From: Cenococcum geophilum 1.58
Taxonomy: Eukaryota; Ascomycota; Dothideomycetes; Gloniales; Gloniaceae
Assembly (NCBI GenBank): GCA_001692895.1
Contig: KV748223.1
Coordinates: forward strand, 1,054,001-1,118,000
Reading direction: 5' to 3'
DNA length: 64,000 nucleotides
Below are positions 30,371-56,700 of the stretch, piece after piece; position 1 is the first letter of the stretch, and every line of letters begins with the position of its first letter. A program made the translations under genes and the position numbers. Under the pieces are notes generated by a model, which was not told the DNA's origin, searched no databases, and saw only the letters and a list, made by a program, of their open reading frames with translations.

Positions 30371-30384
30371 ATATTATCCTTCTA

Positions 30385-32984: not shown

Positions 32985-35900
32985 AGCTCGGGCCCCCCGA
33001 ACTCGGCGACCCCCCGAACTTGGCGACCTAACCAAAATCAAACTACCAATTTGTTAACCTATTTTCTCCATAACGAATCGATTAATATGGACAAAAATAA
33101 GCAGAACTTATAAATGGCCATCATAGACCTCAAATCTGGTGTTTATAAGTATGCGCGAAAAGCTATACTTGTATACGGTATTCCTTTATCAATTTTAAGC
33201 GACCAATTAAATGGCAGGCTACTATAACAATGTATATACCAATGCGAATAGCAATTAACTCCTATATAGTAGGCCTTCCTTACTAATTGGGTACTTAAAT
33301 AGGATTTATAAAAAATATTCCTATTATATACGTAATTATGAAAAAAATAATAGCTTAGGTCTTTGGTTAGGGTTGTAATATTAAGCCCCTTAGTAAAATA
33401 TAGGTAATTAGCTACTTTAAATAAAATCTTTTTATAAAATCTATATATATCTAATTAATAGAAGGTATATATATTAATAGGGTATAACTAAAGTAAATTT
33501 AAAAGTTTTATAGCCTTTATAAAGGGGTGTAAAAAAGGTTAATATATAGGCAAAAAAACACCTCAAATTTAGACAAATTTAGAGTTATATTAAGCATATA
33601 TATAAATTTAATTACTATAGGATATATCTTTAAAAAAAGTTATTTATAAAGTTATTTAATAATTATAAATAGGTATTTATTATAAAGAAAATATTTACCC
33701 TTAGCTAAATAATTTATTTTAAAGGAATATACCCCTAATTAATATAAGTATACTAAAGTAAAATACTTTATTAAATAATAATAATAATTCATTGCTTAAC
33801 GTCCGATTTGGATCCCTATTGGGCCCACGCGGACTACTCCTTATTTACATATAGGGAGAAAACTCTATTTAAAAAAAATAAGAAAACCCCATAATCTATC
33901 TCCCCGCCTTTTAGGACTCGCCTACTTAGCGCCTACAAGTCGCCTATAGTGCTCTACTACCTTATTATTTAACCTTTTTAGGAACTACTGCTGCCATAAC
34001 AAGCCTACGGACGCGCTAGTATTACAAACTATTACTCTACTACTGTAGAGTTACTAGGGGGCACCTACTACTTACCCCCTTGCCTTCTATTACTATTTCT
34101 CTTATAACCCAGAACTAATTTAGCATATTTTAACTAATAAGCCACTAGGTAACCGCCTTAAGGCCTTTTTATATTAAGAGTAGTATATTATAGTTCTCTA
34201 TACTAGCTACTAAGAGTATTATTTTTTAATTGGTATATAGGGGGCATAGCAGTATTACGTGTTTTAGTATCTATTTTAGCCAGCTATATTCGCATCTTAG
34301 GCTACCTACTAGAATACTTACCTAATAAAGCCAATCTTTTAGTCCTATTATTCCTATTTTTAAGAGTGTTGCTATTATATTTTCTACCTTTATTAGGCCT
34401 TCTCGGAGCCCTTAGGTATTTACCCCCTATAGCGTTAACTATACTATAGTTTAGGTTTATCTTACCTAAGTTAGCCTCTATACCTTTAACTCCTATTTAC
34501 CTCTTTAGCGTTAATCTAACTAGTATTATATTACGGTAAATGGTTTCCTAGCGTTCTTATATATTTTACTTTAGCTCCTTTTTCTATCTTACTATTATCT
34601 TTACTAACCTCTTACGCGTCTCCCTTTCTCCTCTATATAGGCCTAGGCCCTAAAGCGGCACTATTTTTCTTCTACTTTCTTTACCTGTTTCTCTAATATC
34701 TTTTCCCTACTTTAGGGTTATTAGTTTATTCTCCTACAGGGCACCCTAGGGTCCCTCTATAGTTTACTTAGACATGTCTTAATATACTTTATAATATTAG
34801 AGTTATATTTATTTTACGTCCTTTATATTACAGTGGCTTTAATATATAACTATAAGGGGGGAATATTAAATTCCTTCTTAAGCAGTACTATAGCCGTTTA
34901 CTTATACCCGCCTATAATACTCTAGAGGTAGGCTATCTAGACCTTTTAAAGTAGTTTAAGGAGTAATTTAAGGGGGCCCTTTTTAGTTTCTCTAATGGCC
35001 TAAATACTAGATCTATATATTATGGTTAGCTGGACAACTACTATATATAATAGGCGTGACCTCTAAAAGTATAGACCCTATATAAAATTAACAATCCTAG
35101 ATAAAGCGATAAACTATACTTAGCCTTTATAGGCCGCTTATGCTATATATGCGCTCTACTAGAGCTTACTATCTACCTATACTCCTAATACCCTTAGGCC
35201 CTAAACTAGTTAACCCCTAAAGCCTTAGATGCGAATTATATACTAAAGATCTGCAGATTAGTTACGTTTTTTTATAAAATAGATTAGCTAGTATTTCTCT
35301 AGTAAGAATTAAACTCTATAACGTTTTGCCTATTCTATATAAGTATTATAGGCTTTCTCTAGTATTCTATAATTCTTTATAGCTATTAGCCCGTATATAA
35401 TTAGGTTTATATTATTAATAAAGCCTATCCCCTAGGTCGCCCCTTTCTTAAAGGAGTTAAGTAGGTTGCTTATAAAGAAAAGGAAGAGTATAGGCNAGAG
35501 GGGTAATNCTTNTAGTATTCCTNTTNTAACTNNAATANGGGGGCTCTAGTATCCGCTAAAGACTAGTAATATTTCTTTCTAGCCTATAAACCCTTAAATA
35601 AATTATATAATCTATTCTAGAAAGCTTTACCCTAAGGATATATAGGAGACACTTATAGGGTATATTATTATAGGCACCACTAATATCTAGGCTAAGTATT
35701 AATACTATAAAGTCCTTTCGCATCGCCTATGTAGATTTAATGGTAGTAGTAAGTAGTATAAGTACTAATAGTATTAAGCGGTTCTTTCTTGCCCCTATTT
35801 AGCTTTATAATAGTAGGGCGTATTCCTCTACTATATCTACTATATATTCCGCTATTACCCTTTCTAAGATCTTATTAAGGGTATTTTCTAAAGCAATAGG

Positions 35901-38330
35901 GCGGTAGCTTCCTAGGATTAAGTAATCTACTTTACCTTCTTTTTATAGGATAACCGTTGTTATAGATCTTCTAAGTTATAGGTAGTAGCCTATAGTAAAG
36001 CATACTCTAACTATATCTATAAGCTAAGGTGCTATAAGTGGCCTATAGGTTTTTAAGGCCTTATTTAGAATCCTATCTAGTCTTAGTGCTATATTATTTA
36101 AAAGGCGGCTAATAGTTCTAACTATTTCCTCTATTATTATATCGCTATTAACCCATAGGTAAGTCACTAGTATTTCGCCTATAATATTACTAAGGTCTAC
36201 TAGAGCTAATTAGGAGAAGAACCTTTCTATAAGGATCTTTGCCTTCTTATTATTATTATTTATAGCCTATAATTCTCCTACTCTTTATAGGGGTAGTAAA
36301 TATAGGTTTTTTACTAGGCGCCCTACCTTTTTTTTTTTTTACCTATTTTACTATATCCCAAAGGCCCTTATTATAGGGGAGGCTTAGGTTAAAAGTATAC
36401 TCATTTATAAACCGTCTCCAGTTATTCCTTACTTCTTTTTTTAGGGTATTCTTTAGCTGGTTTCTTATATCTTTATATCGTCTCTCGTCTTTAGGGTTAT
36501 AGCTACTTATATATTTCCTTCTTGCTTATCATTAGCTGGTAACTAAAACTGCGTATTATATAGACCATATATATCACGCATAGGGGCCCGGTTTTAAGAT
36601 TGGATAGTACTCTTCTAGCCCATTTTTAATTACTGCCTAGATCCTTTCTAGTCTTTAGTTAATTTCCTTAGGGGTGGCTAATAAGCCTCGCTTATTTAGT
36701 ATTAGGTGGATTTCTTCTAGGTCTTAAAGTTGTTGTTTAACTGCATTAAGGAAACTGTCTGTCTTAAGCTTCCTTATTGCGTATCTTTTTCTATTTAGTT
36801 ACGCTTTAGTATTTAGGTCTAGCTATATTTGGATAGGGATATAGTCTAGGGTAAGTGCCTATTCTTCTTTAGGGTTACACCTTTTAAGTCTTTAGTATAG
36901 GCCTTTGTTTATAAATATAAGGTTAATTATACTTCTAGCGGTGCCTTATTGCCATATAATTGCTCCTAAGAGGGTAGCTAGCTTAAGGCCCCAGATATTT
37001 ATAGCTCTTAGTAGGCACTCTAACTATTAATCTGCAGCAATATAGATACCCCCCTACCGCGGGTGGTAGAGGTTTATATCTCCTAGTAAAATAAACTCTA
37101 TACCTTTAGTTTCTAGTAAGCTTATTACCGATATAATATTCTCTGTTTATAGGACCCCTTTAACCCTAGGGTTATACACATTAATAATTTATACCGGTCC
37201 CCTATATGTTTAGATTGTTATAATTATAATATCTAGGTTAACTGCCTGCCATAACCATAAGGACAGGCTAATAGCCTTACTAATTATGAAGCACACGCGT
37301 GTAGCTGCTTTTGGTTTGTATAGGAGCTGGAATCCTCAGGGGCAGTATGTCAATACTTTATTAAATACATATAACGTAAAAGCATAGTTAAATATTAAAT
37401 TCTATTATATTTAGGCTATTTTTTATTATTTTTTATACTAAAAACTAAATTATTTAGTAATAAAGCTTAATTATATTTCATTAATAGCTAGATAGGCCAT
37501 AATATAGTTAGATTTTTATTAAAATATAAATTATATAATATATAGCTTATTTTTTATTACTTTATTTTTTATTATAACCCTTAAATCTATTTTATTCCCC
37601 CTCTGTTAAATTAAAATATTTTAGTCAATTATAAAGTATATATATCTTAATTATATAGGTCTAATTATAAAGTATTATTTTATTAAGTATTACTATAATA
37701 CCTAAAAGAAGGCCTTATAACAAAAGTAATTAAATTTAGCTAGTATATCTTTAGTATTTACTTATAAAATCTATAAAAGGCTATAAATCTTTTTAGGTTA
37801 AAAATAGGGCTTTAATAATAGGATTAAGCTTTAAATAAGCTAATAGTAAGTAATTTAATATTATAATGACCCTAAAGAAGCCTTATAATATAATTAAGTA
37901 GCTTAAGGCCTTTACAATAAGTATATACTTAATTAAAAGACTTGGTCACTTTTATAAAAAATAAGTTAACAACTTTAGAGAGTTATTATAAAGGCTATAT
38001 ATATAGACGCTTAAATATATAGCTTTTAATTATAACTCAAAGACCTTAAAAGTCTAAAATTTTATAAATGGATAACGGTAGATCTAAATATAATACCAAA
38101 ATATATAGATTTAATTCACTAAGCTATAGTGGAGGCAGAGGGAAAAAAGGCTAAAATAAGGGTAAAGCAGCTAAAATTAAGGCTTTAAAATGCGCTAGAT
38201 AGAAAGCCCGAGGTCGATATACTAAATAGTATATAAGAGTAAATAATCGATTTGATTTCGTTAAGTGTAAATAGCTTCCAAAGTGGTGTGGCCAATTTGG
38301 TGGGGTAAACGAGTTCGGGGGGTCCGAGCT
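32985..38330 (+). mobile_element. pogo/Fot1 DNA transposon, split by a LINE
   Basis: Inverted repeats of 21 bp with one mismatch (32985-33005, agctcgggccccccgaact..., and 38310-38330) and TA on both outer sides (32983-32984, 38331-38332), as expected for Tc1/mariner/pogo elements. The left part reads MDKNKQNL..AIIDLKSGVY then KYARKAILVYGIPLSILSDQ from about 33090, the N-terminal helix-turn-helix region of Fot1/pogo transposases. The right part (about 37370-38200) includes a Lys/Arg-rich coiled tail, WRQREKKAKIRVKQLKLRLK near 38130-38190. Strong TpA excess and stops show RIP. Length without the LINE is about 1.76 kb, near that of Fot1-like elements. Confidence 0.82.
33778..37351 (-). mobile_element. 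LINE copy b, 5'-truncated, inverted relative to copy a
   Basis: On the minus strand it runs from within the endonuclease region (37351) through reverse transcriptase to an (ATT)n tail (plus strand aat repeats, 33778-33790). It is flanked by a 16-bp target duplication aatactttattaaata (33762-33777 and 37352-37367), the size expected of target-primed reverse transcription. Its 5' end corresponds to about 20727 in copy a, so 5' truncation is plain. RIP-type stops throughout. A short run of N lies at 35496-35538. Confidence 0.9.
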
Positions 38331-38332
38331 TA

Positions 38333-38945
38333 TAGCTAAGTCCCAGTAGGCGTAGTCTTTATAGCTTTAATTGCTTATATCTAGTAGCCTTACCTTTTAG
38401 CTTAAGGTTCTTTTAGCACGGCTATTAATAGTATATCTACTAACGGTATATCTACTAGCGCCTCTATCTATTACGGGATTAAGCTAGTATACGTCAGCCT
38501 AGGCGAGCGCTATAGCTTCCCCTTTGCTAGCGCCGCCGCAGCTATAGCCGCAGCCGCAACTATAGCTACAGCCGTAACTATAGCCATAGTAAGGGCCTAA
38601 GTCTAAGCAGCCGCCCGTATATTATATGTGCCGCGTAATAAAGTCCGTACGGGCCCTTTAGCGTAAGTAAACTAAAGGGCTTAGAGGTAATCCTTTTATA
38701 GCAGCGCTAGATTCTAAATGGGGTAGTAAATAGTGGGCTAGCCAGTAGAACGAGCTTTAATGGTATTCCCTACGACTTAAGGTTATTAAGGAGACTGAGC
38801 GGATCGCGTAGGCCTAGAGGGCTAGCGAGGAAGCGGCTATATAGTAGGTTAATCTACGGTAGGAGCAGATGCAGTACTTACTAGATTAGCTTTATAAACG
38901 GCTTTAAGCAGGTAGAAAAGCTTGTAAATAGTATATATCTCTAAA
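38333..38945 (+). mobile_element. Crypton-like element 1, GCR1_C part
   Basis: Continues the frame broken at 32984. After a Gln/Pro-rich linker built of a gccgcagctata-like repeat (about 38520-38590), the frame reads AALDSKWGSK then NELQWYSLRLKVIKETERIA near 38690-38800. This is the GCR1_C domain often fused to NDC10-like recombinases in fungi. The stop near 38938 probably ends the protein. Function in a living copy would be DNA binding; this copy is broken by RIP. Confidence 0.75.
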
Positions 38946-39592
38946 ATACTAAGGGGTCTTCTATTAAGTCTTCTATTAAAACCTTTATCTATAGCCCCTA
39001 GGGGCTTATTTTAGTGCGGTATAAGTTTAGTAGGGTGCTTATATTGTTAAATTAAGGTTATAGAGCTAAAACTCTATATATTGCTTATTTTCTATATAGG
39101 TGGTTAAAGAGATTTTAAGGAACTTTAACCGACGGTTAAAGTTACCTAATTGGTTAGATTCCTGCTAAGAGATTTCTCCTATAAGTTTTATTACGTAATA
39201 TCGTTACGGGCTTATTTTCTAACACTCTCCTTTAAGCTTAGTTAATAATACCGCTATATACACTATATATAGGGGTATAAGGTTACTTAATAAGGGTTAC
39301 TAAAGCTTCTTTAAGGTAGAATAAGTGTCTAATAAGGAGTTACGCCCTCCCTAATATCTATCACATATTGGGGGGGCTGATTTGGCGCGGTTACGACCCG
39401 GGTTAATACGAGGTTAGGGCTACCCCTACTAATAACACGCCCGAACCCCGCACGAGGTCGCGCAGCGACCGCCCCCGAGTACTTTCGCACACGATTTTAG
39501 GCGAAAAGGTATATAATTTATGTTAGATTGGTACTTCTGGGCGGTCGCGTAATGTTACTCTAAATTTATAACACCTAAACGGGCTCTATTCC
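38946..39592. other. Spacer with a 9-bp palindrome and a GC-rich block
   Basis: No gene seen. A short perfect hairpin, ctttaaccg-a-cggttaaag, lies at 39123-39141. From 39369 (ggggggctgatttggcg) to about 39500 the DNA is GC-rich and looks unmutated. A similar ggggggggtgatatttgg lies at 43677-43694 beyond Crypton-like element 2, so the two may mark that element's outer borders. Confidence 0.4.
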
Positions 39593-39832
39593 TATATTAA
39601 GGCGTCTTAGTTACTATAGTATAGTCCTATATTAAGACGTCTTAGTCACTATAGTATAGTCCTATATTAAGACGTCTCGGTTACTAGTATAATCCTATAT
39701 TAAGACGTCTTAGTTACTATAGTATAGTTATATATTAAGGCGTCTTAGTTACTGTAGTATAATCGTATACAGGCGTCTTAGTTACTGTAGTATAGTTATA
39801 TATTAAGGCGTCTTAATTACTATAGTAAAATA
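39593..39832. repeat. 35-bp minisatellite, seven units
   Basis: Seven copies, 33-36 bp each, of tatattaaggcgtcttagtt plus actatagtatagtcc. Units differ by single bases (aggcgtct/agacgtct) and a few short deletions. There are no distinct spacers, so it is not a CRISPR-like array. Confidence 0.9.
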
Positions 39833-39889
39833 ACTATTTAGATATTCTTATAAAGCTAATCTAAAGAATGCTAACCTCGTAGCTATTCC

Positions 39890-42800
39890 AGCTGGTTGAT
39901 AGCCTATCTCTTATCTCTTGCCGTACCGTCTTCTACACGCCGTCTTATATCCTTAATTATCCTACGGCGACGGCTGTAGAATATAGCCTCGCTATTAACC
40001 TACTAGTATACCCCCTAGCAGCGATTAAAAGCTTTAATTAACGGCCCACCTACTAGCCCTAAAGTCTACTTAGCCTAGAGCTAGAACACTAAATTACCGC
40101 CCTAAAGCATCTTATATTTCCTTAGCGGTGCTTATAAATTAAGAATAAATAGGAAAGGCTAAGCGTTAGCCTGTGGTAGCTGCGGCGGGGGTATAGTAGA
40201 CGTTATGGTAAACGGCTAAGTAGGCTTTGTGGTAGGCTCTATAGTAGGCTCTACAGCAGTAAACAGTTAAGAACCCCTTAGTATCTCTATAGGGGTTAAA
40301 TATACAAAAAAGGGTTTATCTAAAGATAGAATCTAGCTAGACTTGCTATTAAGCAAGCAAGCCAAGCCAGAAAGCCTTAGCTTGCTAGCTTAAAACTTTT
40401 CGCACCTAAAGCTAGCTTACTTAGCTTAATAGGTCAAAACAGTCGGCTTGCTTAGCTTGCTTAAAGGCTTGCTTAATTTTATAAATATTTTAGAGTAATA
40501 TATAAAATTAAGCCCCCTAACCACTAATTGGCTAAAAAGCTCCTCTACAGCCCTGATTTATAGTCATTAAAATATAAGATAGCATAGAGATAATATAATA
40601 AGGAAGTTCGCGTAGCTAAGGATGTCTATTATAAGGCTTAGCATAGTAATGAGGAAGGTTTCGCTAGGAAGGCTTTAGTAGGAAGGCTTTAGTAGAAAGA
40701 TCCTACTGTTAACTCTAACAGTTAGCTACTAATTATACTAATCCCGGTAAACTTATTACCTTATCTATAAGATCCTTAAAGCCTATTCTTAAATAGCTGC
40801 GATTATACTATAAAGCAGTAATAATATTAGGGCGAAGCTTTAAGAAACGCGGTTCTAGTAGATCACTAGCTTCACCAAATACCTATTCGCAGTCGTCGCT
40901 TATAGCCAGTATAGTTAATATATTAAGAGCCATCTATGCAAGCTTCAGCCAAGTAGTTTGCTAATAGGTAATCGTCTAGTAGTAGCGGCAGAGTTTTTTA
41001 AGCTTTATATTTGTTAGACGCGTCAATAGAGCTTTAAGCCACGCAGCTAGTATATTACCTAAATAGTCCTATTTACTCTATTTGCATACTTAGAAATATC
41101 TAAAATCGTTTATCTATAACACCAAAATCTATTATAAACTTTAGATCTCTACTAAAATTATATATATATATTTCCTATTAAGCGGGTAAGCAAGCAAGCA
41201 AGTAGGCCCTCTTTTAGCTTGCTGGCTTGCCCAAATTAGGCCCTTCGGCTTACTGGCTTACTTAATTACTAATTAAGTAAGCCAAGTAAGCTATTAAGCC
41301 AGCTTGCTTAATAGCAAGTCTAAATCTAGCCGTTAACGTATTTAGGAACGGACTTAGGTATAAATATAGGGCCGTTTAAAGACGGACGTACGGACTCCGT
41401 AGGCCCTATTTAGATGCCCATCTTCCCTTACTAAATCTATAAGGTATAAATAATGCTAATAACCTTTTTATCTCGCTAAGGCGTTCTAAGATTATCTACA
41501 CGCGTAATTAAACCCCCTTTATTTTAGAGATTGCGGCCTTATATCTTAGCTTAGTTACGGCCTTATAGGCGGGCCAGTATTTCCGTATTATTAGCTCATT
41601 TAGCGTAACTACGTTAGCTAGTAAGCTTTCTACCTACGCGGTAAACCTCTAGTACTCCTTATAGCTAAAGAGGGGGTCCTTTTATAGGGAGTAGAGCGGG
41701 AACTGCTTATATAGGATTACTAAGTCCTATAATAGGATTACCCTAAGCATATAGAGGAGGCGTAGAAATCCTAAGCCTATAAGGTTAAGCTATATAACCT
41801 TATTATCAGCCCTACCTAGGTAGTAGGCCTTTATACGTTTTAGCCAAATATTAGTCTTAGGCTATATCTTTAAATAAAGGGCCTTCTTTGGCACCTCTTA
41901 TATATATAGGAGAAAGTAGCCCTTTCCTTCCTTTAAGAAGCCGGCGATTAACCGTATAAACGCATAGGGTAGGTAGCTAAGGTAGGCTCCTATTATCGCA
42001 TCTATATTCCAGCATCTAGCCCGTCTAATTTAGGTCTTCTTAACGCCGCTAAGCTTAGTATACTGGACGCTCTGCTTATAGGCAATATAGGTTTTCTCTT
42101 TTAAGTAAATTCCTACCCCCTAAAACATCTTTTTATTTTATTTAAATTGCGTATAATAGCTTAGCGGCCGTTATAGTACTTTAATACTACCAGGGAAGAC
42201 GTATAGGTTATAATAGTCCTCCAGCTATTAAAAGGATAGGAAGCTCTTAGCGCTATCTTTACCCTAGTGGTTAAAGAAGTAAAAAGACATTATAGAGAGG
42301 GGGTGGAGGATAGGGTTAGCGTTCCATATATAGCCTATATACTTAACCTTACCATACTAATTCTACTTCCCTTATATTATTAACATAATTATACACGGCG
42401 CTAACTCGTCTAGTTTAAGCCCTTTATTCTCTAGTTTAATAAAAATAAGGTTAGTAAGCTAAACATCTTATCTACTTTTACTATGGGTAATGGTAGTATA
42501 GCCTAAGGAATAGGTTAGAAAACGGCAGCTATATAGACTGGATAGGGTATATACGAACCTAATAAATGCTTAGCTATAGTTTAAAGGTAAGACTTAACTA
42601 AACCTAGTATCTTAGAGCCNNNCTNNTAGNACTAAGTAATNACCTTTTTAAGCNCTTTAANNTTATAGCCGCTAGTAATTATAAATAGGCCTTAATTAAT
42701 AAAGTTAACGCGTTAAATCCGGTCCTTATTACGGCGGACGCTGTCTAGTACTACTAAGAGCTTTACCCCCTATAGCGGCTATAAGGTCTTACCTTCCAAC

Positions 42801-43560
42801 TACTATATATAAAGCTTAGTAATAGTAAAGATATAGCTATTTATAACTAAGTATCGGACTATTTTATTAAATAGGGCGTCTAGGGCCTCCTTATCCTATA
42901 TCTCCCCTTCCTCCTTTATAGCTTCCTCCCCTATACCTACGGCTGCCCCTATAGCTACCCCTACGGCTGCCTTCCCCCCTAGCTACCTTAGCCGCTTAAC
43001 CGTCTTCTACCTTTTCTTTACCCGCTCGCTATCTTTCCATATCTCTTTCTATTTTAACTTCCATTTTTAATAGCTAGCAGCCTATAATTCTTAGTTAATA
43101 ACTTACTACTCTAAAAATAGGTAAAGCTTATCTTCTATTACCTAGGCGCCGTCCATATTACCTTCTAGTTTTATATACTAGTCTTCCTACTCTTTCTACT
43201 TTAGCTTATACGCCCTTATAGTATTTTTTAAGCGCTAGGCCTTATGAATATTGTATAGCCGTGCTGTTTGGGCCTTAAATTCGCTCTAGAGGCTATAGGG
43301 GGAGAAGGCTAGGGGGGCTTCTGTCGACCGTAAAGTGGACCATAAGGTAAGGAGATTCTTAAAATACTCTATATCCGTAAGAGGTAAGGGGGAAACGCAT
43401 AAGCGCGGCGCGGGTAAATAATGCTACTAAACGCGTAAATATTAAAGGAGGAGAAGAAGAAGAGGGCTCTATATTATATAATTATAATTACGGTAGGCCT
43501 TTCTATATAAAATTAGAAGCCCTATACGAGCTAGTGCGGGCACAAGGACAAGAGAGGGTT
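39890..43560 (-). mobile_element. Crypton-like element 2 (NDC10 + GCR1_C), split by hAT
   Basis: Minus strand. Near 41960-42200 the reading gives LSYYTQFK, then KEKTYIAYKQSVQYTKLSGV and RRARCWNIDAIIGAYLSYLP, the Tyr-recombinase half of the NDC10_II family. FYFFNH lies near 42265 and an N-terminal region extends beyond 43300. The expected His of the His-x-x-Arg motif reads Tyr and its Arg reads Tyr, both RIP-type changes. After the hAT insertion the GCR1_C domain appears at about 39900-40150 (NSEAIFYSRRRRIIKDIRRR). Pieces are in different frames and hold many stops. Sequence differs enough from element 1 to be another subfamily. N runs lie at 42620-42662. Confidence 0.75.
40338..41322. mobile_element. 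Small hAT element with perfect TIRs and 8-bp duplication
   Basis: 985 bp. The termini are perfect 21-bp inverted repeats (40338-40358 and 41302-41322, beginning tagacttgctattaagcaag) and both sides carry the 8-bp duplication aatctagc (40330-40337 and 41323-41330), diagnostic of hAT transposition. Subterminal arrays of aagcaagc/ggcttgctt occur at both ends, probable transposase binding sites. No transposase is evident; the interior has stops in all frames, so it was mobilised in trans or is a decayed internal deletion copy. It lies in the linker between the recombinase and GCR1_C regions of Crypton-like element 2. Confidence 0.9.
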
Positions 43561-44216: not shown

Positions 44217-46527
44217 TCAGCATCGTTCGAATACCCTGTATAAGCCCTTGAGATTGGCAACTTCCATAACGCCTTTTAGCAGACCTTTGGTAGCAACTAA
44301 TCTAGCCTTGAATGCTGGGAAGATGACATATTCAATTGCGCGGGTGAGCTGCTTCCTTCTTGCCACAATTTCTGGGCCTTCCGTTGCTGTGGTTTCCGCT
44401 CCGTCCTCGTCTGGTAATGGAGGATTCGGAAGTGATTCTGGCACGTAAAAACTGGCTAGTTCCCGAAGAAAGCTGTGGAAACAACCTTTTTCATCCGTCC
44501 AGTCAACATGAGGTCCTAGCCGTAGGAGGAACTGGGGGAGCTTGGCTAGTGAGGGCATGTATCCCTTAATCAAGATAGGAATTCCAAGCAAATTACCCTC
44601 CTCCGATATTTCCAAGGAGAAATACTCCGCAAGCATATCACGACGACTGACTAATTGATCCTTGACGATAGAAACGACTTCATCCCAGTCAACCTCGTCA
44701 TCAGTCTCAGCTACGTCCTTTTCGTGAGCTGCAGCAATACGCAAAAGATCTTTCAGATTCAAGGCAGGATCAAATCGAATGCTGCCGAAATTTCCAAAAT
44801 CGGTCAAGCCAACCTGGTAGAAGTATTCGTTGCAAACCATGCCATAGTCAACGAGATAGAGTTTTACTCCTCCCTGGATGGCTGCAATCCTTCTCCGCTC
44901 ATCTACTAGGCCAACGAATGTATGTCCCGCGAAGACGTCTGTCAACTCATTGTGCATATTATCCCGAACTTCTGCTCGGAGGTCCTTGACTGTAGTTAGC
45001 CGACAAAGCGTAGGTTCCTTCTCAGAATATTCGTATTCCATGTCGTCGATGGCTGTTTCGTCCTGAGGCGCAGAATCCGAAGGCGGATGCTGTCCAGCGG
45101 GGAGCATGGATGTTATCTTTCTAACACTAGCATCGGTTCGAACAAGATTGTTTTCATAGGGCCTTTTTGTCAATGTTTTCTGCGATGGAAACTTATGGGA
45201 AGGGCCAGCAGGTGTAGTGGGACCTGAGCTTCCCTGTCCCGAATCCCCCATTGGCGATGGTGCCACAGACGCTAGGGGAGCCCTGGCCCCTGGTAGTAAA
45301 CTTTGCGTCATGAAAGACCTGCTAGTGTCGACTTTACCTAGGCTTGCTCGAATTTCATCGCAAATGATTTCAATGATTTCGTCTTCGTTGAGAAAGTTGA
45401 CTTCTCGTTTTGTTGGATGAATATTGACATCGACGCGATGTGGGTCAATCTCCAGACTCAGATAGATGAATGGGTGCCCTCCTTTCGGAAGGAAGGTAGT
45501 ATAAGTCTGCTCAACGGCCTTCTTGATGGTTGATGATTCAACAGATCGATGATTGATGAAGAGCAAAAGAGTAGTCCGCTTGACGCTGTAATTTGCGTTA
45601 CTGATCCATCCCTCCGATTTGAAACCCCAGCGATCATTTGCGGCCTTAAATTCAATCAATTCGTTGGCAACAGGGCTGCCGTAAACTTGACGGATCCGGT
45701 CAACGGTCCCAGCAATTGCCGGCACGGAGATTCCCATGGTTGAATCACCATGTTTCTTACATGTGAATGATACTCCGCTGCAGTGAACAGCGTAACGGCC
45801 GACGAGATCAAGAATCTTCGCATACTCCTCACTCACGGAACGAAAAGCCCGCCGGCGAGAGGGAACGTTATAAAATAAATCCTCAACCTAAAAACAGTAA
45901 ATAAAATAGACTCAGGTGGAGACTAGTGCTAGCCCAACCGTTATTTGAGTTCCTTGACGACCAGCGACTGGCTTTGGGTCAGGACTCTGGCCTGGTTTCG
46001 GTGAGATGAGCTTTCCATCTGCATAATGAGCCCGCCAAGCGCAGCTCGATTCTTTCGTCCTTGTAGTGACGCTAAGATGAGCTATGTGGCTAATACTTGC
46101 CAGAGCTTCACCGCGAAAGCCGTACGTCCCGATTGAGGTCAGATCCTCAAACGCCTTCAGCTTAGAGGTAGTGAAACGCTCACAAAGGATGGCCAGATCT
46201 TCCCGCTACACACTGTTAGTATAGGAATACGTTAGTAATTACAATGCTTACATCTATACCGTGTCCGTTGTCTGTGATCTGCAGGAGCTTCAAACCACCA
46301 TCCTTAACCAGGATCTCGAGAGCAGTTGAGCCCGCATCAACAGCGTTCTCTATCAACTCTTTCAAAGCATGGACTGGAGCAACAATGATCTCGCCGGCGG
46401 CGATTTTGTTAACGACATCTTGGGATAGCGCTTTAATCCTTCGCGGTGCATCTGGTAGATGCACTTCATCTGCCTTCCGTTTGGTTCCTCGAGGAGCTTC
46501 GGACCCAATATCCATTGATTCTGCCAT
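44217..46527 (-). CDS. mlh1: DNA mismatch repair protein MLH1, three exons
   Basis: MutL homologue that pairs with PMS1 (MutL-alpha) in the nucleus to act after MutS homologues bind a mismatch. Exons are 46527-46252, 46205-45939 and 45887-44217, joined in phase 0, giving 737 residues, a usual length. The GHKL ATPase domain is complete: NKIAAGEII (40-48), [10 protein letters not shown] with Glu57, Asn61 and Asp64, DNGHG (86-90), GFRGEAL (121-127) and GTQIT (177-181). The transducer region holds [19 protein letters not shown] and [10 protein letters not shown] low-complexity Ser/Pro linker leads to the C-terminal PMS1-binding domain. It ends YRVFERC, the invariant MLH1 terminus that completes the PMS1 endonuclease site. 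Codon use is normal and no RIP-type stops occur. The start was chosen because the frame begins there and the family motifs follow at the usual distance; short upstream frames precede it. Confidence 0.96.
45888..45938 (-). other. mlh1 intron 2 (51 bp) with unusual donor
   Basis: Between ...GTQIT and VEDLFYN. Donor gttggg, acceptor ctgtttttag, both preceded or followed by a ggttg repeat. It contains an in-frame TGA, so retention would truncate the protein within the ATPase domain. The donor departs from the gtaagt consensus. Confidence 0.85.
46206..46251 (-). other. mlh1 intron 1 (46 bp)
   Basis: Donor gtaagc, branch-site-like ctaac in tatactaacag, acceptor gtgtgtag. Removal joins GHGID to [11 protein letters not shown], the normal MLH1 sequence. 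Confidence 0.92.
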
Positions 46528-46638: not shown

Positions 46639-46646
46639 GTCACGTG
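46639..46646 (-). promoter_or_regulatory. CACGTGAC, possible bHLH (Cbf1-type) site
   Basis: The palindrome CACGTG with following AC lies about 115 bp upstream of the mlh1 ATG on its coding strand, in otherwise unmutated promoter DNA and between the gene and the inserted element. It is a short motif that could occur by chance. Confidence 0.35.
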
Positions 46647-46682
46647 CGGCTTCTTACAGTGGTTTTCTTTTGTCTCAGCATG

Positions 46683-46763
46683 CTCAGACCACATGGGACG
46701 CCGGATAAATCCGGCCCGATGGCACTAAACTAGTTTAGGCCATCTGTCCCTGTGTGGTCTGAG
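46683..46763. repeat. Left terminal hairpin of the MULE-like element
   Basis: Arms ctcagaccaca (46683-46693) and tgtggtctgag (46753-46763), extended by gggac/gtccc. The loop holds two more hairpins: ccggat-aa-atccgg (46701-46714) and gatggc-a-ctaaac-ta-gtttag-gccatc (46718-46744). The whole could form a branched cruciform. Confidence 0.85.
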
Positions 46764-47032
46764 ACACTTTGGCAGACGTTTATAAAGCACGTCGCTAAAT
46801 CCACATTGCTAATATTACGGATATTCACTTTTTATTATTATAACGAGTTTGGGCAGCTTGAAAAATCCATCGATTATATATTAAGCTCTGGCGAATCAAA
46901 TGGTCTATATAAAAAGTCTCCCTGCCTTCCCGTTCCTNACATTAATTTTAAAATAGCCGTNACATGGTTTGCCAAAGTNTACAATACGAGAATTCTGCCA
47001 AATTTTCCAAGAACTTACAGCCCTCAATTTTT

Positions 47033-47117
47033 ACTGCCCTGCTACTGCCCTACTACTAACCTGCTACTACCCTACTACTACCCTACTACTGCCCTACTGC
47101 TGCCCTACTGCTGCCAC
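47033..47117. repeat. Low-complexity ctactgccctac array
   Basis: About seven imperfect copies of a 12-bp unit such as ctactgccctac inside the MULE-like element. Plus-strand frames through it are repeat translations with no family resemblance. Confidence 0.7.
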
Positions 47118-47340
47118 TACTGCCATTACTGCTACTGCTGCCATACCGTCCCCTACTCTAGCTGCTTTAGCCACTACCATCTAGGCTACTAGCAACCATC
47201 CTAGCCGTTATTAGTTATATAACTGCGTCCGCTTAGACCTTTAGTATAGAGCTTTTTTATTGGTTATATAGCAAATCTCGCAAGTTTTAAACCGGCTAAG
47301 TTAGAAGGGTTGGCGTGGCTGGTTACAACTAGAGCAATAG

Positions 47341-47565
47341 CACGGAGGCTACTGCAGAGACTGCGGAGACCGCTACGGAGATTGCTGCGGAGATTGCTGT
47401 GGAGATTACTGCGGAGGCTGTTGTGGAGGCTATTACGGAGGCTATTGCGGAGGCTGTTACGGAGGCTATTGCGGAGGCTATTGCGAAGGCTGTTGCGGAG
47501 GCTGTTATAGAGGCTGTTGCAGAGGTTACTGTAGAGGCTGCTGCCGAGGTCGCTGTTGGGCCTAC
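47341..47565. repeat. Low-complexity gcggaggctatt array
   Basis: About eighteen imperfect copies of a 12-bp unit such as gcggaggctatt. One plus frame gives EAIAEAVTEA-type repeats, another Arg/Leu repeats; neither looks like a gene. The minus strand resembles the Gln/Pro-coding tract at 7000-7110. Confidence 0.75.
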
Positions 47566-48036
47566 TTCTTCTCCTTCTGCCTATTGTAATACTATTTATA
47601 GCTAGTTAATCTGTCACGGCTACAATGCTGCTATTACTAGAGAAGTGGTGTAAAACTACCACGTAACGCTTATAGATATTAATAAAGACCATTTGTATGT
47701 TAAATACGTGCGCCCAACGTCTTAAATTTGAATTCTAGTCGCATTAGATGCACTAGTACACAATACAGATGTCCCAGATATCTACCGTTCGATCGAAAGC
47801 TTGAGAAGACTGGTTCCTGCTAAATAAAATAGGGGTTTCTTCCACGCCTTTTAGATGCACCCATGGCCGGCAGTTGGTTCTGGAAAATCCATCGATTAGA
47901 GAGCTGATAAAGGTGACTCTAATACAGGTATTAACAGGATAATAGATGTGGCGGTTACTTACATTAATTTCGTTAAAGTTAATGATTTGCCTCATACAAA
48001 TAAAGCGGCTCGGCTTCCAAAAGCTTGCCAAAGTGG

Positions 48037-48130
48037 CTCAGACCAAGAAACAGATCGATCGATCGAATAGGTTAGCTTGCGGATATTCGATTATCCGCGC
48101 AGCGGATATTCATCGGTTTCTTGGTCTGAG
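48037..48130. repeat. Right terminal hairpin of the MULE-like element
   Basis: A perfect 15-bp stem, ctcagaccaagaaac (48037-48051) with gtttcttggtctgag (48116-48130). The loop holds gatcgatcgatc and a smaller hairpin gcggata/tatccgc (48079-48098). Stem bases differ from the left hairpin beyond the shared ctcagacca, yet pairing is kept. Confidence 0.85.
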
Positions 48131-48143
48131 CATGCTGAGTCAA

Positions 48144-48275
48144 GGTTTTCTTATCATCTGCAAAGTTCGCTTGATAAGAGCCGCCCACATCAAAATATTT
48201 TGATTATATACAAAATCACATACAAATCGAATATCGTCGAATGCGCACTACTTTTTTGGTTTAAATACACTCACT
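48144..48275. other. Displaced mlh1 upstream DNA with a 16-bp palindrome
   Basis: Starts with the 9-bp target duplication. The perfect palindrome atcaaaatattttgat lies near 48189-48204. Before the MULE-like insertion this DNA was next to the mlh1 promoter. Part of it may be the 5' untranslated end of the Tc1 element that follows; I could not find that element's inverted repeats. Confidence 0.4.
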
Positions 48276-49298
48276 ATGCCTCTCAAGATTCCTTCTTATC
48301 GCGTCTTTCAAATATGCGTCGCCTTATACTACGGCTGGAAGGTTACATGGATCGCAGCAGCTACCTAAGTGCATTACTCAACTATATATCGCATGAGAAC
48401 GTCTCTAGATATATGGGGAACTCCATACCCCCCCCATATTGCTTAGCAAGGAAGGCCTTAAGCTCTTAAACCAATGCATAAGTAGGTTCGCGATAATTAA
48501 TATTATGGTGTTAGAGCTGCTTTCTTATAGATATTATAGGCTCTACTTGCGTTTCTCGCCGATCGCCCAACTGCATTCCTTAATAAAATGGCCTGGTTCC
48601 TATATAACGAGTTCAGCTTAGCTATAAACCTCTCAACTATATAGAAGACTCTTGCGCGCCTGTGGTGGAGTCGTAAGATTATATAGAGGAAGGCGCTTGA
48701 GCGAGCAGAGGATCTTCATGCCCTATAGAAGGGACGTTAAATCGTATAGGACATTTATTAATTAGTATTTATTAACGAATTAGGAGCTAATAAGAGAACT
48801 AGCTATAGGAAGTTTAGATAAAGTCCTATTGCTCTACCTGCAGTAAAAGTCTCCTTAATTCGACGCTTTAAGAGGTGGAGTGTACTACCTACCTATACCT
48901 GTGATGGCTTCCTCCCTAGGACTCTAATTTATTAAGGCTTTATTACCTCTAAGATATTTAATATATAGATTAAAGCTGTAGTTCTTCCGTAGTGTACGCC
49001 TAGTTATATAACTCTAATTATAGATAATGCATTAATATATAAAAGTTAGGTAAGATTGTTAATTAGGTGAGTAACTATATATATATATTAATATAAAATA
49101 GGAGCTCCGAGCTCTTTGTAAAAAAGTAGGTGTTTATATAGAATATCTTCCTCTATACTCTCCAGAGTTCAACCTAATTAAGTATGCTTTTTACGACTTA
49201 AAGACGTGGATTTAACGTAATATTAGCGAGCTTAGTATATATAGAGACTTTGGAAGCTTTTTGAGGCTTAGTATAAAAAGTATAGGTAAACGTTTAGC
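48276..49298 (+). pseudogene. Tc1/mariner (DDE_3) transposase, RIP-mutated, 5' part
   Basis: The frame starts at ATG 48276 (MPLKIPSYRVFQICVALYYG), with a helix-turn-helix-like N-terminus and a RKIIRRKALERAEDLHAL-type middle. The DDE core has FINELG near 48770, LIIDNALIYKS near 49015-49045 and EYLPLYSPEFNLIKYAFYDL near 49142-49200. The family has Asp, Asp and Glu at the three catalytic places (DE, DNA, NPIE). Here the first reads Asn and the third Lys, both G-to-A changes, and only the second Asp remains. A frame change lies at a run of C near 48430, and TAG/TAA stops are common. The last 46 bases, including HFQHIGYLVVN and a stop, are at 63469-63514 beyond the Gypsy insertion. About 355 codons in all, usual for the family. 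Confidence 0.88.
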
Positions 49299-49723
49299 TG
49301 TTACAGACGCTTTAAGTACAATGTTACGACTACTTGGAAAAGAGACGGAAGAAGCTAGTTGGTTAATTCAAGCACGGTCCAGGATAGAGCCGGTAGAACT
49401 ATGTGACAAGGAATAGTAACTAAGGTTATATAATATGCTACGTATTAAACAAGAGGAATAAGAGGAACTCATATACCTTATATATAAGACGTATATTATG
49501 TATAAGAAGGATTTTATAGGAGTACGGTTGTGTATTTAAGGACCTTTAGTCCCTACTTAGATAGTTCCTTTCTTATAGTAATTCTTAGAATATAATTGGA
49601 GTTAATTTATTAGGCAACCACTCTACTAGTTATTATTACATTGTTAACTTTTATACTTACATTTCCTATACACCTAGCCTAATAACAAGCCTATTGTAGT
49701 TCTTGCTATAAGGTTCCGTTACA
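49299..49723 (+). repeat. 5' LTR of Gypsy G1-c
   Basis: Starts tgttacagacgctttaag and ends aaggttccgttaca. Confidence 0.92.
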
Positions 49724-52700
49724 CAATCACTACCTAGTTACGGTATTAATATAAGAAGTTAAACAATATGCTACTAAAAGCAGCTACTATAATGCCATTA
49801 ATGGCAGCAACTACTTTAGGGATAGGAGGTAATACTAGTATAGCGGATACTAACTTATAGCAACCTATGACGGTCGGATAGCTATAGAAAATAGTTAACT
49901 AGCTAATAGCTAACAATATAGTGTTAGAAGAAAGACTTAATGGGATAAGAGCAGTAAAGATTAAGCTACTATTAATTAAGAGATTTATAGGAGAGAGGTT
50001 AAAGCTTAAAGGATTCCTTATATAAATGCACTTTAAGGTCTTATAGGAAGGAGCAAAGTTACTTATACCTATGGATCGGATAGCCTATATAGGACTATTT
50101 TTATTAGGAAAAGCACTTAAGTAGTTCAAACCTTACCTTATAGAGATACAGGCAAATGGAATAACGACTACTAACTAAGATATGCGATTTATATTTTTAA
50201 GTTAGGAAGAATTTATAGAGCGACTTACGCAGATATTTAGAGACCTAGAAGAAACAACTATAGTAAAAAGAAAACTCCAGAACCTTATGTAACGAACTTT
50301 AGCAATTAAGTATACAATATAATTTTAGACACTAGCAATATAAGTAGAGTAAAATAATAGGGCGCTTATAGCATAGTATAAATAGGGACTTAAGGCTAAA
50401 GTCTAGGACGTAATTATTCTAATAGAAGATGCGGACACCCTAAGGGAACTAATAGATTAGGCAATTAAGATTAATAATTAGATCTACTAAAGGGAACAGG
50501 CTAAGAGAGGCTAGAATAGAGTTCTATAGTCGTATAAGGCACAGAGTATATAACGACAAAAGCTAAGTTAGAAACTATAGTATGGCGCAGAGCTAATAGA
50601 CCTAAGTGGTACTAAAGAAGCCTATAAGAGATGGAGTAAACTATAGAAACCTAGAGAACAAGGATTAAGTAATTAAAGGTCTAAGAAGTAAAGGCCGAAT
50701 TAGGGATCTTAATAGCAGAAGATATTTAGGCGGACTCTATAGTAAGAGAAATAGTTTAAAGAAGAAGCTTATATAAATTGCGGAAAACAGGGTTATTACG
50801 TTAGAGACTATAGAAGTAAGCAGAGTTACTATATAGTAAAAGGTACGAGGCTAGTAGATAATATATACGTATAGAGGGACGATAATATACTACAAGGAAT
50901 AAAAGAGTGTTTAATTAAAAGTTTTATGTTTTGTTATAATAACGCATGCTAAATTTATAAGGACGCTAAGTATAGCGCAAGCTATTAGCTATAAGAGCTA
51001 GCACCTATAGGATATAGAGGAACTAATAAACTAGTTTATAGATCGGATATTAAGGACAATAAATTCGACGTAGGCGAAACATTTTATAACAATAAGGCAA
51101 TAAGAGCCGCTTACTAGGAGCGAGTAGACCTTAGAGATATTATACTAAAGGTAGAGAATAATTCCACTACAGAATAAGGAGTATTAGTAGGGATTAAAAC
51201 CCCACTAGATACGATGTTTATCGCCTTACAAGACGCAAAAGAAGAAAAATAGCAAACTACTTTGGTACTTAATAAAGGCAAAAGGCTAAAGGCTTAAGAT
51301 TCTTAAGACAAGATAAAAGACGACTAAGATTCTTAAGACGAGATAAGGCACACCCTAGGACCTACAACGGATAAAAACCGATAGAGTAGGGTAGTAGCTT
51401 AGTTCAAAAATATATAAATAAGCTTAGGACAAAGTTTCCTATAGGTATAAGATTCTTAAGATAAGATAAGTAAGATTTAAGACTCTTAAAATAAGATGAG
51501 AACACTATAAACGCCTAGTTAAACTAAGGCGGGAGCTAAGCTTAAGTTAGAAGTAAGCTTAGGATTAAAGAATCTAAGGGACTAAGATTTTGGAGTATAA
51601 ATAAGGACACCTATAGGCAAAAGGCAAGGAGCTTCTTTATAGATTAGAGAATCTGCAATATAAATAGCAGTTAGATTAAGAGATAGATATATAGACCTAG
51701 AAGACTTACTAGGGGAATATAGTGTTTAGCCTAAAGATTAAAAGTTTAATACTAGGATTAAGAAGTAAGACGACTTTAAGGATTAGGGCGTAAGGCGCAA
51801 ACTAAAAGAAACTATAGAAGAATTTAGGTAAAGAATTATCGTATAATAAGAACAAAAACTAGACAAGAGATCTAGTATATTAGGACGTATAAAGGACAGA
51901 ATACTAATATAAAGAATTACTAATAGGCCGAGAGTAGGCATATTAAGAGCTAAGTGGCTTACTAAACTAGAAAATAAAGAGGATCTAGGGATTTTAACTA
52001 GGTTTAAAGAACGATATATAAAGGGCTGTTACGATATAGTAATAAGAAGATACTTCCTTATGGACAGACTATATATACTCTAGCAGCTGTACCAAAAGTG
52101 GTATAGGCAAAGGCATAATAATAAGTGGGAAGATTTCTATATGTGGTTAGATAAAAAAGTTATCTAAAACCACCTAATTACAGAGAAGGCTATAACGCAT
52201 ATTAAAGGAGCCTTAATTATAATGTTAAAGGATCTAAAGGAATAATCAGAGGACTAGAGAAGCGAAAGACGCATCTTAGTACCTACAAATAAAGTTATAA
52301 CGTTTAGATTAGTACGATAAAGGTTTAAACTTAGGGACGAAGATAAGCTAAGAGTTAACCTAAAGCACCTAGTATACTATACGTTATTATAGATTGCGTA
52401 TATAGACGATATATACAAAATGTATAAAAATCCAAAGGAAAAGAATCAGAAATACTTTATAAGGATATACTAGATAATAAACAAGCAATAGTATAGGAAT
52501 GCCAAATATATATATAGATGGCATCTAGCAGAGGTCTAAGAGGAAGGAAGTTTAGTACTTTAACTAGGAAGATTCCTTACGGAAGAATGCTTAGATGGAC
52601 AATAGTAGTGGGAATGCCTAGAAAATACGTATCTATAGTATATTAAAGATAAAAAACAAACTAGGTATTAGCTAAAGAGCGAGCTAAGCGTACTAGGATT

Positions 52701-53476
52701 AAGTAGCTAATAGTTAGGAAAAGTAGAGGCCTACGGGACCAAAGGGAGCCAGTGGTAGAGCCTTAAACCCTTAAAGGAATTTAAGAACAACACCTAAATT
52801 TACAAATTAATTGGCAAGATTAGCAGTTTAAAGCGCTAATAGATAGTGGAGTAACGNNAAACTATATCTCACTAGNAGNANTTAANAGAATGGGANTACC
52901 TTATANANAAAAGGAGTAACCTTACCNATTAGTTATAATTTTAGGAGATCTAATAACCTATAGAGGAGGGATTATTAATCTTAAAACAGAACCTATTTAG
53001 ATAACTATTAAAGGAAGATAAATTAAGATGTCTTTTAATATTCTACTATTAGGACGGGACGAGGTAGTATTAAGTATACCTTAGTTACAGGAATATAATC
53101 TAAGGATTAATTAGATTATAGGTCAGGTTAATATTAGAGATACTTAACGCTATAAGATATAACAATAAGCCAAGTTAGTATAGTACTAAGTAGGGGCAAC
53201 CTATAAAGAAATAGAAAAAGGACTAAGTTATATACTAAAGAGATACTATAAGTATAGCAAAAAACTATGGTTACTAGAAAGTAAAAAGCTGTTAGAATAT
53301 ATAGCATAGGACTATAAAATAGAGTTAGAACTAGGAATAAGTTTAAAGTTCTTTTTAATCTATAAGCTTACCAAAGAAGAAGGTAAAGCATTAAAAGAGT
53401 TTATCTAGGAAAATCTATAAAAGGGATACATTAGACTATTATAATTATTAGCGGGTTATCTAGTACTATTTATACT

Positions 53477-53734
53477 TGTCGGTACCAATTTAATAGTATA
53501 AGTAAGTCGTGTCTAGGGGCACGAAATACGTATAGTATCGTATGCTTATTTAGACGGTAGTGACTGTCAATTGTATGAAGCAGACTACGTGGTCTATATA
53601 CTGATGCACCTCCCCCCTAAGCTAGTGTTTTAGGAGTGCACCAGACGCGTAAGCGAACCGAACGCGTAAACGCGTACTTAGTGTATCGAACCGCGTAAGC
53701 ACGCGGTTAGTATAGTAGGTGCTGTAATTATACA
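53477..53734 (-). repeat. 3' LTR of copia C2
   Basis: Plus strand from tgtcggtaccaattt to gctgtaattataca. Lies at the low-coordinate end because the element is on the minus strand. Confidence 0.9.
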
Positions 53735-56700
53735 CTAGCGGTACTTAGAAAATGGAACCACTTGCGTATAGCCTCCGTAATTACCTTAATAGAACCATAA
53801 AAGACGTAAGAAAATACATAGGAAATCCCTCCCGAGGTGCCTTTTAGGTTGCCTTCTAAACGGTGCTCTAAGCTAGCCGTAAGTCCTACTTACGGTCCGT
53901 AAAATAAACTATACGCCCTTTAACGGGCCGTAAATACACCATACGGCCTTCCAAACGGGCCGTAACTGAACTATAAATGCTCTATTAGTCTTACTCTACC
54001 CATTCTATAACCTTTAGGTTAAGCTTATTTATATTAATTAGGGTTTTAAGAGCTTAACACAGCTTTACCTTCGTTATAGCGTCTGCTAAGTTATCTCCGC
54101 TGCTAATCCATTTAACCTCCGTAATCTCGCGTCGTTCGTAGGCCTAATATAGGCACATTAGGTCGACCATAAGCCTCTTCTCTTATATCGTACCTAGTTT
54201 AACTAGGCAGTCGTAAAGGGACTTTAAATCGGTATATAAAACTAGGGGTAGCCGCTCTAGTTATAGGATCTTCTAGATCGTTAATTTAATTACGGCTGCT
54301 ATATTAAAGCTATAGGCTAATGCATATAGTTTAGAAGCTAGTATACTACGGGTTACTTGCTTGCATTTAATTAAAGACCAATATAGTATATTTACGTCTT
54401 AATTACGGTCCGTAAGTACAATTATAAAGCCAATTTGCAATAATAGGTCCCTATTATTAGCAAAAGAGGCGTCCGTAAATACTATTACGCTAATAGAATT
54501 TAGGTCTAGCGGTATAAAAGTAAGTCCTCTTATCGCATTATTAATTTGCCATTAGATGCGCTTATTAAGCTGCTTAATATTTTCTTCTTATAGATCTACT
54601 ACCTAGGCCGCAAAGGATAAGTCGTAGGCAGATTCGGGTTAATAGACTATAGCAATATAGGCACCTCTTGCACGCTATGCAGCGTATTAGTCCTTCGTAT
54701 TTATAGTCTTATAGGTCTCTTTATAGGAACTAGTAAGGTTTATAGGCTTTACCGTAACGGGCTTTAGGTTTTAAGCTTGGCGTTCCTAAGTTAGCTAAAT
54801 TAAGTTGCCCTTTTATATAATTAAGCCTCTATTAAACTTAATTAGAGTCCGCTTAGTTAACTGCTCTTATAGCTTTACTAGGAACTTAGCTTCTTACAGT
54901 TTGGTCTCTTCCGCGTCTATAAAAGTTTAGTCCGCTAGAAAGAGGGTATCGTCTATTTAGAGTTTAATGATGCCAAGGCCGTTTAATAGGGTATATAGGA
55001 GGCAAGGGTTATAGGTCAACTGCTCTATCTTAAGTTTACTAACGTAGTGCTAGTAATACGTCTTAAACTAGTGGTTTCCAGCTTCCAGCACTCTATAAAG
55101 TGGTTTTATAACCTATAAAATTATTCCTAGTTACAGATTAAGCTTAAGCGGTGGCCGTATAAAGATGTCCCTACTTAGGTAGGTATTAGACTGTATATAG
55201 GCTTGCGAGATATCCCATAAGTAGAGGGCTACGGGTTTAGTTTGCTGTAGTCCCAGTATAAGCGTAAGTATAATCCGTTAACTAACTCGTTAAATTATAG
55301 GCAATTGCGTAAGGACGAGGTCCTTTCCCTAGTCGTTATAAGCTTATATAATAAGCCTTAACTTTTTAAAGGCTTTATTAGTACTAGGGTGCTTAATTTC
55401 GTTAATAAAGCGCGAGTTAAATATACGGACGCCTTGCGGAACATCTCTCTCCGTTATAACCGTAAAGACGCCCTTCTTAAGTAGTCCGTTAATCTCTTTG
55501 CGTCGTAAGTCCATAAAAGGGGTTTCCTATACTAGAACTAATATATCCGCAGGCGGAGATTGCTTTGCGGATATACCTATAGAGGTTAGGTAATTCTCCG
55601 TTATGGGGTTCTTGCGGGGGCGTCCTCGGCTACGCTTTATAGCAGGTTCCGTAGGTTTATTAGGTTTCTAGGGGACCTTTAAGGTAGGTAAGGGTGCTTC
55701 TAGTTTATCTAATTCGGCGGGTGCTTCTGGTTCGTCTAGCTTAACGTTATAGATGTTTTTAGACCGAAAATAGGGTTTTACGGACATGCTTCTAAAGCTT
55801 GTCGGTCCGCTAGGGAGCTATATACAGCAGGTCTCGTCTTCTACGGCTAGTAGACGGTAAGGTCTAGTCTAATTGCCGCTTTTACGCCATATAAGGACTT
55901 TAGAGTTAAGCGGGAGGTTATATACTAGGGTTATATTAGGTCCGTTACGGTGGTATAAAGCGTTATTAATAGTTTATTTAGCCCGTAATTTGACTATTTC
56001 GGCTATTGCCTTCCGTATTACAGCTACTTAATCCGTAATAGACAGGGCAGGAGGGTCTAGTTTGCTTATCCTTAGGTAGGCTCCATAGACTAAAAGGGTA
56101 GGTACCAGTCCGTTAGGGCTAGCGGTGTCGTTAATGGCTTTTACGGCCATCTGTAAAGCCAGTTCCTTTTAAATATTCTTATACTCGTCCATAATGATCT
56201 AGTAAGCTTTCTATAAAGCTGGGTAAGCTCACTTAACAAGCCTAACGGACTAGTACGCCTTAACTAGAACGGCTTTTGTTAATATAGCTATGGCCATAGC
56301 ATACTGCTGGAATTCCTTACTAATAAAGTTCCTATTAGCGTCGTAGGTAATATACTCAGGAGGCCTAAGGTATGTATCAATCCAGTAGGTCCGTAAAATA
56401 TCCTAAGTATATTTTATGGATATATTTTACAACTAACGGGCGGCTTAATAGCGGGTTACCTCGTCAATTATATATAATACTAGACTGCCGTTAATATACA
56501 TAATATCCACGTATACTAAGTGGTTAAAATTAAGGTCCTTATAAAGGGTGAACTTAAATCTGCCTAGGGAACGTCCGTATTTCTAGCAGAAAGAGTAGTA
56601 TTTAGTTAGGTGGTCAATTGCCTTCCTATTAACGTTGTTGTGTCCAGAACGTTTAAGGACTCTATATAGCTTTTCAGCTAACGGGTAGCCGAAGCGGCGG

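Follow-up and report, generated by a model that had tools for sequence, protein, structure and literature searches.

DNA transposons of the AcademH group, reportedly described by Kojima in 2020, have an Academ-type DDD/E transposase as their defining feature, and Galileo elements are characterized by hairpin-forming termini. Among yeast retrotransposons, Tf1 being one example, integration positioned by transcription factor sites has already been described. The available sections of the AcademH literature give target site duplications (TSDs) of 9 to 10 bp (PMC10045372) and a helicase with DEAD and Helicase_C domains (PMC10799480), and the genome of Cenococcum geophilum is described in the accessible part of its report as 178 Mb in size with 75% transposable elements (PMC5816826). 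The window analyzed here, the whole stretch of 64,000 nucleotides from C. geophilum 1.58, carries in front of the mlh1 gene an insert for which a joint interpretation is very probably correct, namely that it is a non-autonomous derivative of AcademH-like elements encoding DUF6589 and RecQ-helicase proteins and that its integration was anchored to an E-box.

The neighboring gene is MLH1, as shown by matches to Pfam Mlh1_C (2.3e-100) and to the yeast MLH1 chains (1.5e-64); its three coding exons (44217..46527, minus strand) are open, and its ATG at 46527-46525 lies 142 bp from the element. On both sides the mlh1 region is flanked by AT-rich blocks (48700-54000, 30000-43000, and 9000-20000 of the window) with RIP indices of 1.24 to 1.40. 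The insert itself (46670..48143, plus strand) is recognized as a non-autonomous transposon by its terminal inverted repeats (TIRs), its TSD, and its near-full-length relatives. It is framed by a perfect 9-bp repeat, GGTTTTCTT, at 46661..46669 and 48144..48152, and a third GGTTTTCTT is found in the window at position 33880 on the other strand. The 22-bp ends, TTGTCTCAGCATGCTCAGACCA and TTGACTCAGCATGCTCAGACCA, are mismatched at 1 of 22 positions and were assigned by end comparison to a TTGT form (A-end, 46670..46691, plus strand) and a TTGA form (B-end, 48122..48143, minus strand), with a TGGTCTGAGNCACTTTGGCA block near both ends in opposite orientations. When re-measured, the length of 1,474 bp, the single mismatch in the 22-bp ends, and the perfect duplication were all as claimed in the original prediction. 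Isolated Ns at 46938, 46961, 46979, and other scattered positions lie inside repeat copies and probably reflect the ambiguous consensus of collapsed repeats.

The prediction had also called the insert hairpin-capped, and this is borne out by the folding of both ends and by arm covariation. The A-end forms a branched hairpin (46681..46764, plus strand) with an outer stem CTCAGACCACA/TGTGGTCTGAG and two inner hairpins, the B-end a hairpin (48036..48131, plus strand) with an outer stem GCTCAGACCAAGAAAC/GTTTCTTGGTCTGAGC, and each has a DNA folding energy of -30.7 kcal/mol (z of -6.85 on the plus and -7.96 on the minus strand for the A-end, and of -6.39 and -6.02, respectively, for the B-end). In a comparison of 13 arm clusters with 68 distinct pairs of arms, with 11 further ends lacking a downstream partner, the hairpin arms covary between families: same-end arms match on average at 5.6 of 9 positions vs 3.0 crosswise between clusters (0 of 20,000 permutations), and four of the 13 clusters score 4 or less. 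This covariation is most simply read as a result of selection on structure, and coevolving paired protein sites may be an alternative. An account of the hairpins as subterminal binding sites seems weaker to us, given that within one element the A stem is unlike the B stem and each is largely self-complementary.

Genome searches covered the 177.2-Mb assembly of 162 contigs. The 18-bp core of the terminus, at up to 2 mismatches, gave 145 + 157 matches vs 1 + 1 for the reversed control, and a 20-base terminus pattern gave 156 exact matches vs none for its control. A DNA search with the mlh1 element returned at least 49 matches, at least 14 of them near-full-length at 80% to 100% identity when the mlh1 copy is included, leaving at least 13 further near-full-length copies at 80% to 97%; these counts are lower bounds because 40 of 563 candidates were scored. 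Further copies thus exist, and the absence of any other copy, which the original prediction had named as evidence against itself, is not what was found. A terminus search of viral contigs gave no matches, and one of a second contig collection gave 2, where a simple calculation predicts about 7, with no hairpin partner seen by eye.

Twenty-eight of 29 loci examined for two ends yielded a pair (the exception being L042), and a TSD of 9 bp, chosen for each element as the best match among candidate ends, is perfect in 23 of the 28 and within 1 mismatch in 26. Together with the TIRs and the family copies, these duplications confirm a transposon with a 9-bp duplication. Ends that had duplicate outer flanks or lacked the expected terminal motif were excluded from the counts of the E-box in the two sets of ends described below and from those of hairpin arms and of end types and sides, and three coincidences of TSDs between loci were ignored. 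The single TIR mismatch tracks the type of end, with T in 52 of 53 A-ends and A in 44 of 52 B-ends, and we therefore rejected it as a sign of age or decay; the original reasoning from near-perfect ends fails on this point. The joined flanks of one insertion (L022) match 38 other, paralogous places at 78% to 92% identity over part of the query, of which 37 are empty sites that continue through the junction and one stops there. This repeat, which carries TCACGTGATCTCAGGAAGCTCC and is possibly an LTR, has received more than one insertion of the transposon near the repeat's own E-box (L020, L022, and matches to the L022 flanks).

The insert was originally thought to lack RIP, which is wrong: the mlh1 copy differs from a 14-copy consensus at 29 of 1,459 sites, and 27 of these differences are C-to-T changes (20 at CpA, 4 at CpG, and 3 at CpT), leaving 2 others. 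Its closest relative among the compared copies, L011, is 98.1% identical on the consensus alignment and 97.4% by blastn. The RIP index of the element is 0.22, compared to -0.68 for mlh1 and 1.24 to 1.40 for the three repeat-rich blocks of the window. Given the few differences outside the RIP pattern and the intermediate index, the copy is probably young, though lightly RIPed, so that the proposed recent arrival stays plausible but not as that of a copy untouched by RIP.

The ends of the mlh1 element recur in larger elements, about 6.4 kb long, that carry two convergent genes, one for a DUF6589 protein and one for a RecQ-like helicase. The former is a 957-aa open frame adjoining the B-end (DUF6589 at 1.1e-68 in L029; frame also in L030), and the latter an 883-aa open frame adjoining the A-end (DEAD at 7.4e-12 and Helicase_C at 2.3e-8 in L031; frame also in L033-L036) with RecQ, WRN, and BLM among its nearest solved sequences. 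When aligned to the DUF6589 protein, eight large copies damaged by RIP show 53 to 60 stops each, summed over pieces, and DUF6589 is still detected in one such copy at 2.1e-41 when stops are read through; genome-wide, 102 DUF6589 places were scored, part of them within fetched elements. Five A-ends (contigs C9, C42, C74, C88, and C149) have differing flanks, which indicates separate insertions. Four of these coding pieces show 0 to 1 differences over 4,892 positions, but their near-identity may stem from assembly collapse, as shared Ns suggest, and is thus unproven. The pieces with intact genes end at contig ends, and none of the contigs seen has both genes and both ends intact together; the A-end on C74 and the B-end on C14 have the same TSD and therefore probably belong to a single insertion that is interrupted by a gap in the assembly. 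Assembly breaks inside near-identical coding pieces are seen at the starts of C9, C42, C43, C74, and C149 and at the ends of C41, C45, and C88 (L029-L036 and L039). A subtelomeric account of terminus hits lying equidistant from four contig starts was discarded, as these contigs start within near-identical element pieces.

Compared to these larger elements, the mlh1 insert has in common a helicase-side region at its A-end (46670..46985, plus strand; 90.8% over 316 bp, L031 and L033) and a DUF6589-side region at its B-end (47796..48143, minus strand; 93.1% over 350 bp, L029 and L039), and it has no match to the genes of L031 and L029. Between them lies an interior of low-complexity triplet runs (46986..47795), near the edges of which the blastn matches to the compared larger elements end. 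The mlh1 insert is thus a non-autonomous derivative with the ends of a coding element and without its genes. The family resembles AcademH in its 9-bp TSD, found at up to 1 mismatch in 26 of 28 elements as given above, and in the helicase with DEAD and Helicase_C domains detected by Pfam in L029 as well as L031. The motifs YDNFDY, YGDQKTAKLIR, and VETYKVLK, common to the L029 and L032 proteins by eye, are only suggestive as pointers to an Academ-type transposase. The open-access literature that we searched yielded no mention of DUF6589, and the available sections of PMC13041039 contain nothing on Academ.

The sequence CACGTG, known as the E-box, is the classic bHLH palindrome. One of the two CACGTG in the window lies at 46641..46646, 23 bp outside the A-end and 14 bp beyond the TSD, and this E-box together with the 113 bp that separate it from the mlh1 ATG is outside the insert. 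The influence of the insert on mlh1 expression or the mutation rate that was originally suggested is hypothetical. A regularity absent from the original prediction was noticed on reading the flanks of a first set of 68 ends, 20 of which have CACGTG at offsets of 23 (n = 1), 24 (n = 10), 25 (n = 7), or 26 bp (n = 2), with 8 further CACGTG over all remaining offsets from 0 to 91. We then fetched a second set of 40 short stretches with flanks unseen, of which 37 gave an end and 3 none; CACGTG stands at 24 bp in 5 and at 25 bp in 4 of these ends and elsewhere in 2. The other 28 of the 37 are without an exact E-box at 24 to 25 bp, and about half would be expected to be so if the motif is present on one side only. 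Among the 28 two-ended elements, CACGTG lies 23 to 26 bp outside one end in 20 exactly and in 24 within one mismatch, compared to means of 0.33 and 1.07 in 15 equal control windows. Four elements have no such motif. They are L012, with an E-box at offset 34; L018, with 7 mismatches between the copies of its 9-bp TSD; and the pair L046 and L047, which show the most CpA changes among the 14 copies compared and contain candidates for RIPed E-boxes.

A genome-wide pattern search at spacings of 10 to 40 bp gave 52 matches at 50 distinct ends, with 2, 17, 19, and 7 at spacings of 23, 24, 25, and 26 bp (45 of 52) and 7 across the other 27 spacings, a background against which the Poisson tail is 1.6e-56. 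The control hexamer GTGCAC gave 8 matches in the same search, at 8 different spacings and none at 23 to 26 bp. The best form of the E-box, TCACGTGA, is not over-abundant in the genome (2,718 sites vs 3,126 for the reversed control), and the gap between E-box and element shows no strong consensus. A sister subfamily (L049-L088) has TTACCTCAGCAAGCTCAGAC ends and family-specific hairpin stems of its own, and its 16-base core has 90 + 98 exact genome matches (188), counted irrespective of the TTAC start. Seven sister pairs were fetched: a 9-bp TSD is seen by eye in L049, L050, L053, and L054 but not in L051 and L052, and L055 is not a usable pair. For the sister terminus TTACCTCAGCAAGCTCAGAC, CACGTG has no genome-wide match at spacings of 10 to 40 bp.

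In nine E-box-side flanks selected by us for RIP and Pfam analysis (eight fetched ones plus mlh1), the RIP index is at most 0.46 in six and 0.73 to 1.24 in three, so that the common feature is the E-box rather than a promoter. Two gave Pfam matches above the cut-off, namely mlh1 and a 1,3-beta-glucan synthase frame pointing towards the element; a patatin match in the frame beside L016 remained below it. The insertion approached by the glucan synthase frame is that of a coding element (L136 and L031, contig C88). The preference of the family for the E-box is thus shown, and a general preference for promoters is not supported by the nine flanks. Because the family sits at a fixed distance from CACGTG, its placement in the mlh1 promoter follows a targeting rule and is not chance.

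The link to the E-box could in principle be an artefact of duplicated host repeats that carry one old insertion or of survivorship near promoters, and part of the insertions do sit in copies of one repeat (L020 and L022, with CTCAGCGACTCAGCG seen by eye in several flanks). We consider this hardly credible given that the 52 genome-wide matches have 49 distinct TSD strings, that among 30 ends the E-box lies on the A side in 13 cases and on the B side in 16, that the mlh1 and glucan synthase sites adjoin ordinary genes, and that survivorship would give no peak 4 bp wide. Membership among the Mutator-like elements, as originally proposed, is very unlikely: the 9-bp TSD that spoke for it fits these elements, which have duplications of about this length, but AcademH likewise makes 9-10-bp TSDs according to the accessible part of PMC10045372. 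We reject this assignment since DUF6589 and a RecQ-like helicase are what the end-sharing larger elements encode and the scanned proteins have no MULE domain; the transposase domain PF10551 was absent both from the six read-through frames of L023 and from the intact reading frames in L029, L031, and L032, and none of its 79 genome matches was seen by eye within the fetched copies.

How the E-box is read is the step on which the remaining explanations diverge. In the one we favor, the insert would have been moved in trans by proteins of the intact ~6.4-kb relatives, with the integration complex held at the E-box, most likely via a bound host bHLH (Cbf1-like) protein, and a 9-bp staggered cut made ~14-17 bp beyond it. 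The helicase would open the ends, so that the subterminal hairpins become exposed and can serve in recognition or assembly, and the E-box in the mlh1 promoter, 113 bp from the ATG, would have been used by the element as a landing place. For the tethering by a host bHLH protein taken alone we see a roughly even chance, and the complete account of a DNA transposon that finds promoters by docking on host bHLH at TCACGTGA, cuts 14-17 bp away, and has its helicase-exposed hairpin ends recognized, with mlh1 as one of many sites, seems to us somewhat short of that. Alternatively, and differing in the last step only, the transposase or helicase itself might recognize TCACGTGA without any host factor, which we regard as a possible though tentative explanation. 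The tight spacing, with 36 of 45 at 24 to 25 bp, is what direct contact would give, and the lack of such a preference for the sister terminus fits as well, but neither the 957-aa nor the 883-aa protein has a known E-box-binding domain according to Pfam, and the motif, a classic bHLH palindrome, has T and A preferred on its two flanks (20 of 30 and 19 of 30, respectively). Moreover, precise placement of integration is likewise achieved by a host protein in the case of Tf1, as described in the available part of PMC7175516.

If integration positioned by a transcription factor site holds true for this DNA transposon family, it would account for the way in which promoters are found within a genome full of repeats, would make the insertions a natural archive of E-box use, and would suggest a concrete, testable role for DUF6589, a Pfam family whose function is unknown. 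A general rule would then replace a special story about mlh1, with any such E-box being a potential landing place. Within the portions of the open-access literature that our search covered, we found no report of a DNA transposon whose integration is positioned by transcription factor sites. The family is like AcademH in its 9-10-bp TSDs, its DEAD/Helicase_C helicase, and the reported occurrence in Ascomycota, but E-box targeting and hairpin ends are absent from the AcademH descriptions in the available sections of PMC10045372 and PMC10799480. With foldback-type Galileo it shares termini able to form hairpins, though Galileo belongs to the P superfamily (PMC4168063, in part) and the hairpins in the family of the mlh1 element are short and branched and follow soon after the terminal motif. 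Tf1 of fission yeast, with Sap1 and Atf1, is similar in that promoter-biased integration is placed by DNA-binding proteins and their sites, but, as far as the accessible text of PMC7175516 goes, it is an LTR retrotransposon with an integrase and uses other proteins, whereas the mlh1 family is a DNA transposon with a putative factor. Dada, finally, is likewise a target-selective eukaryotic DNA transposon according to the parts of PMC3706591 and PMC8869645 available, yet it targets multicopy small RNA genes, whereas the motif used by the mlh1 family is short and dispersed and lies a fixed distance beyond the duplication.
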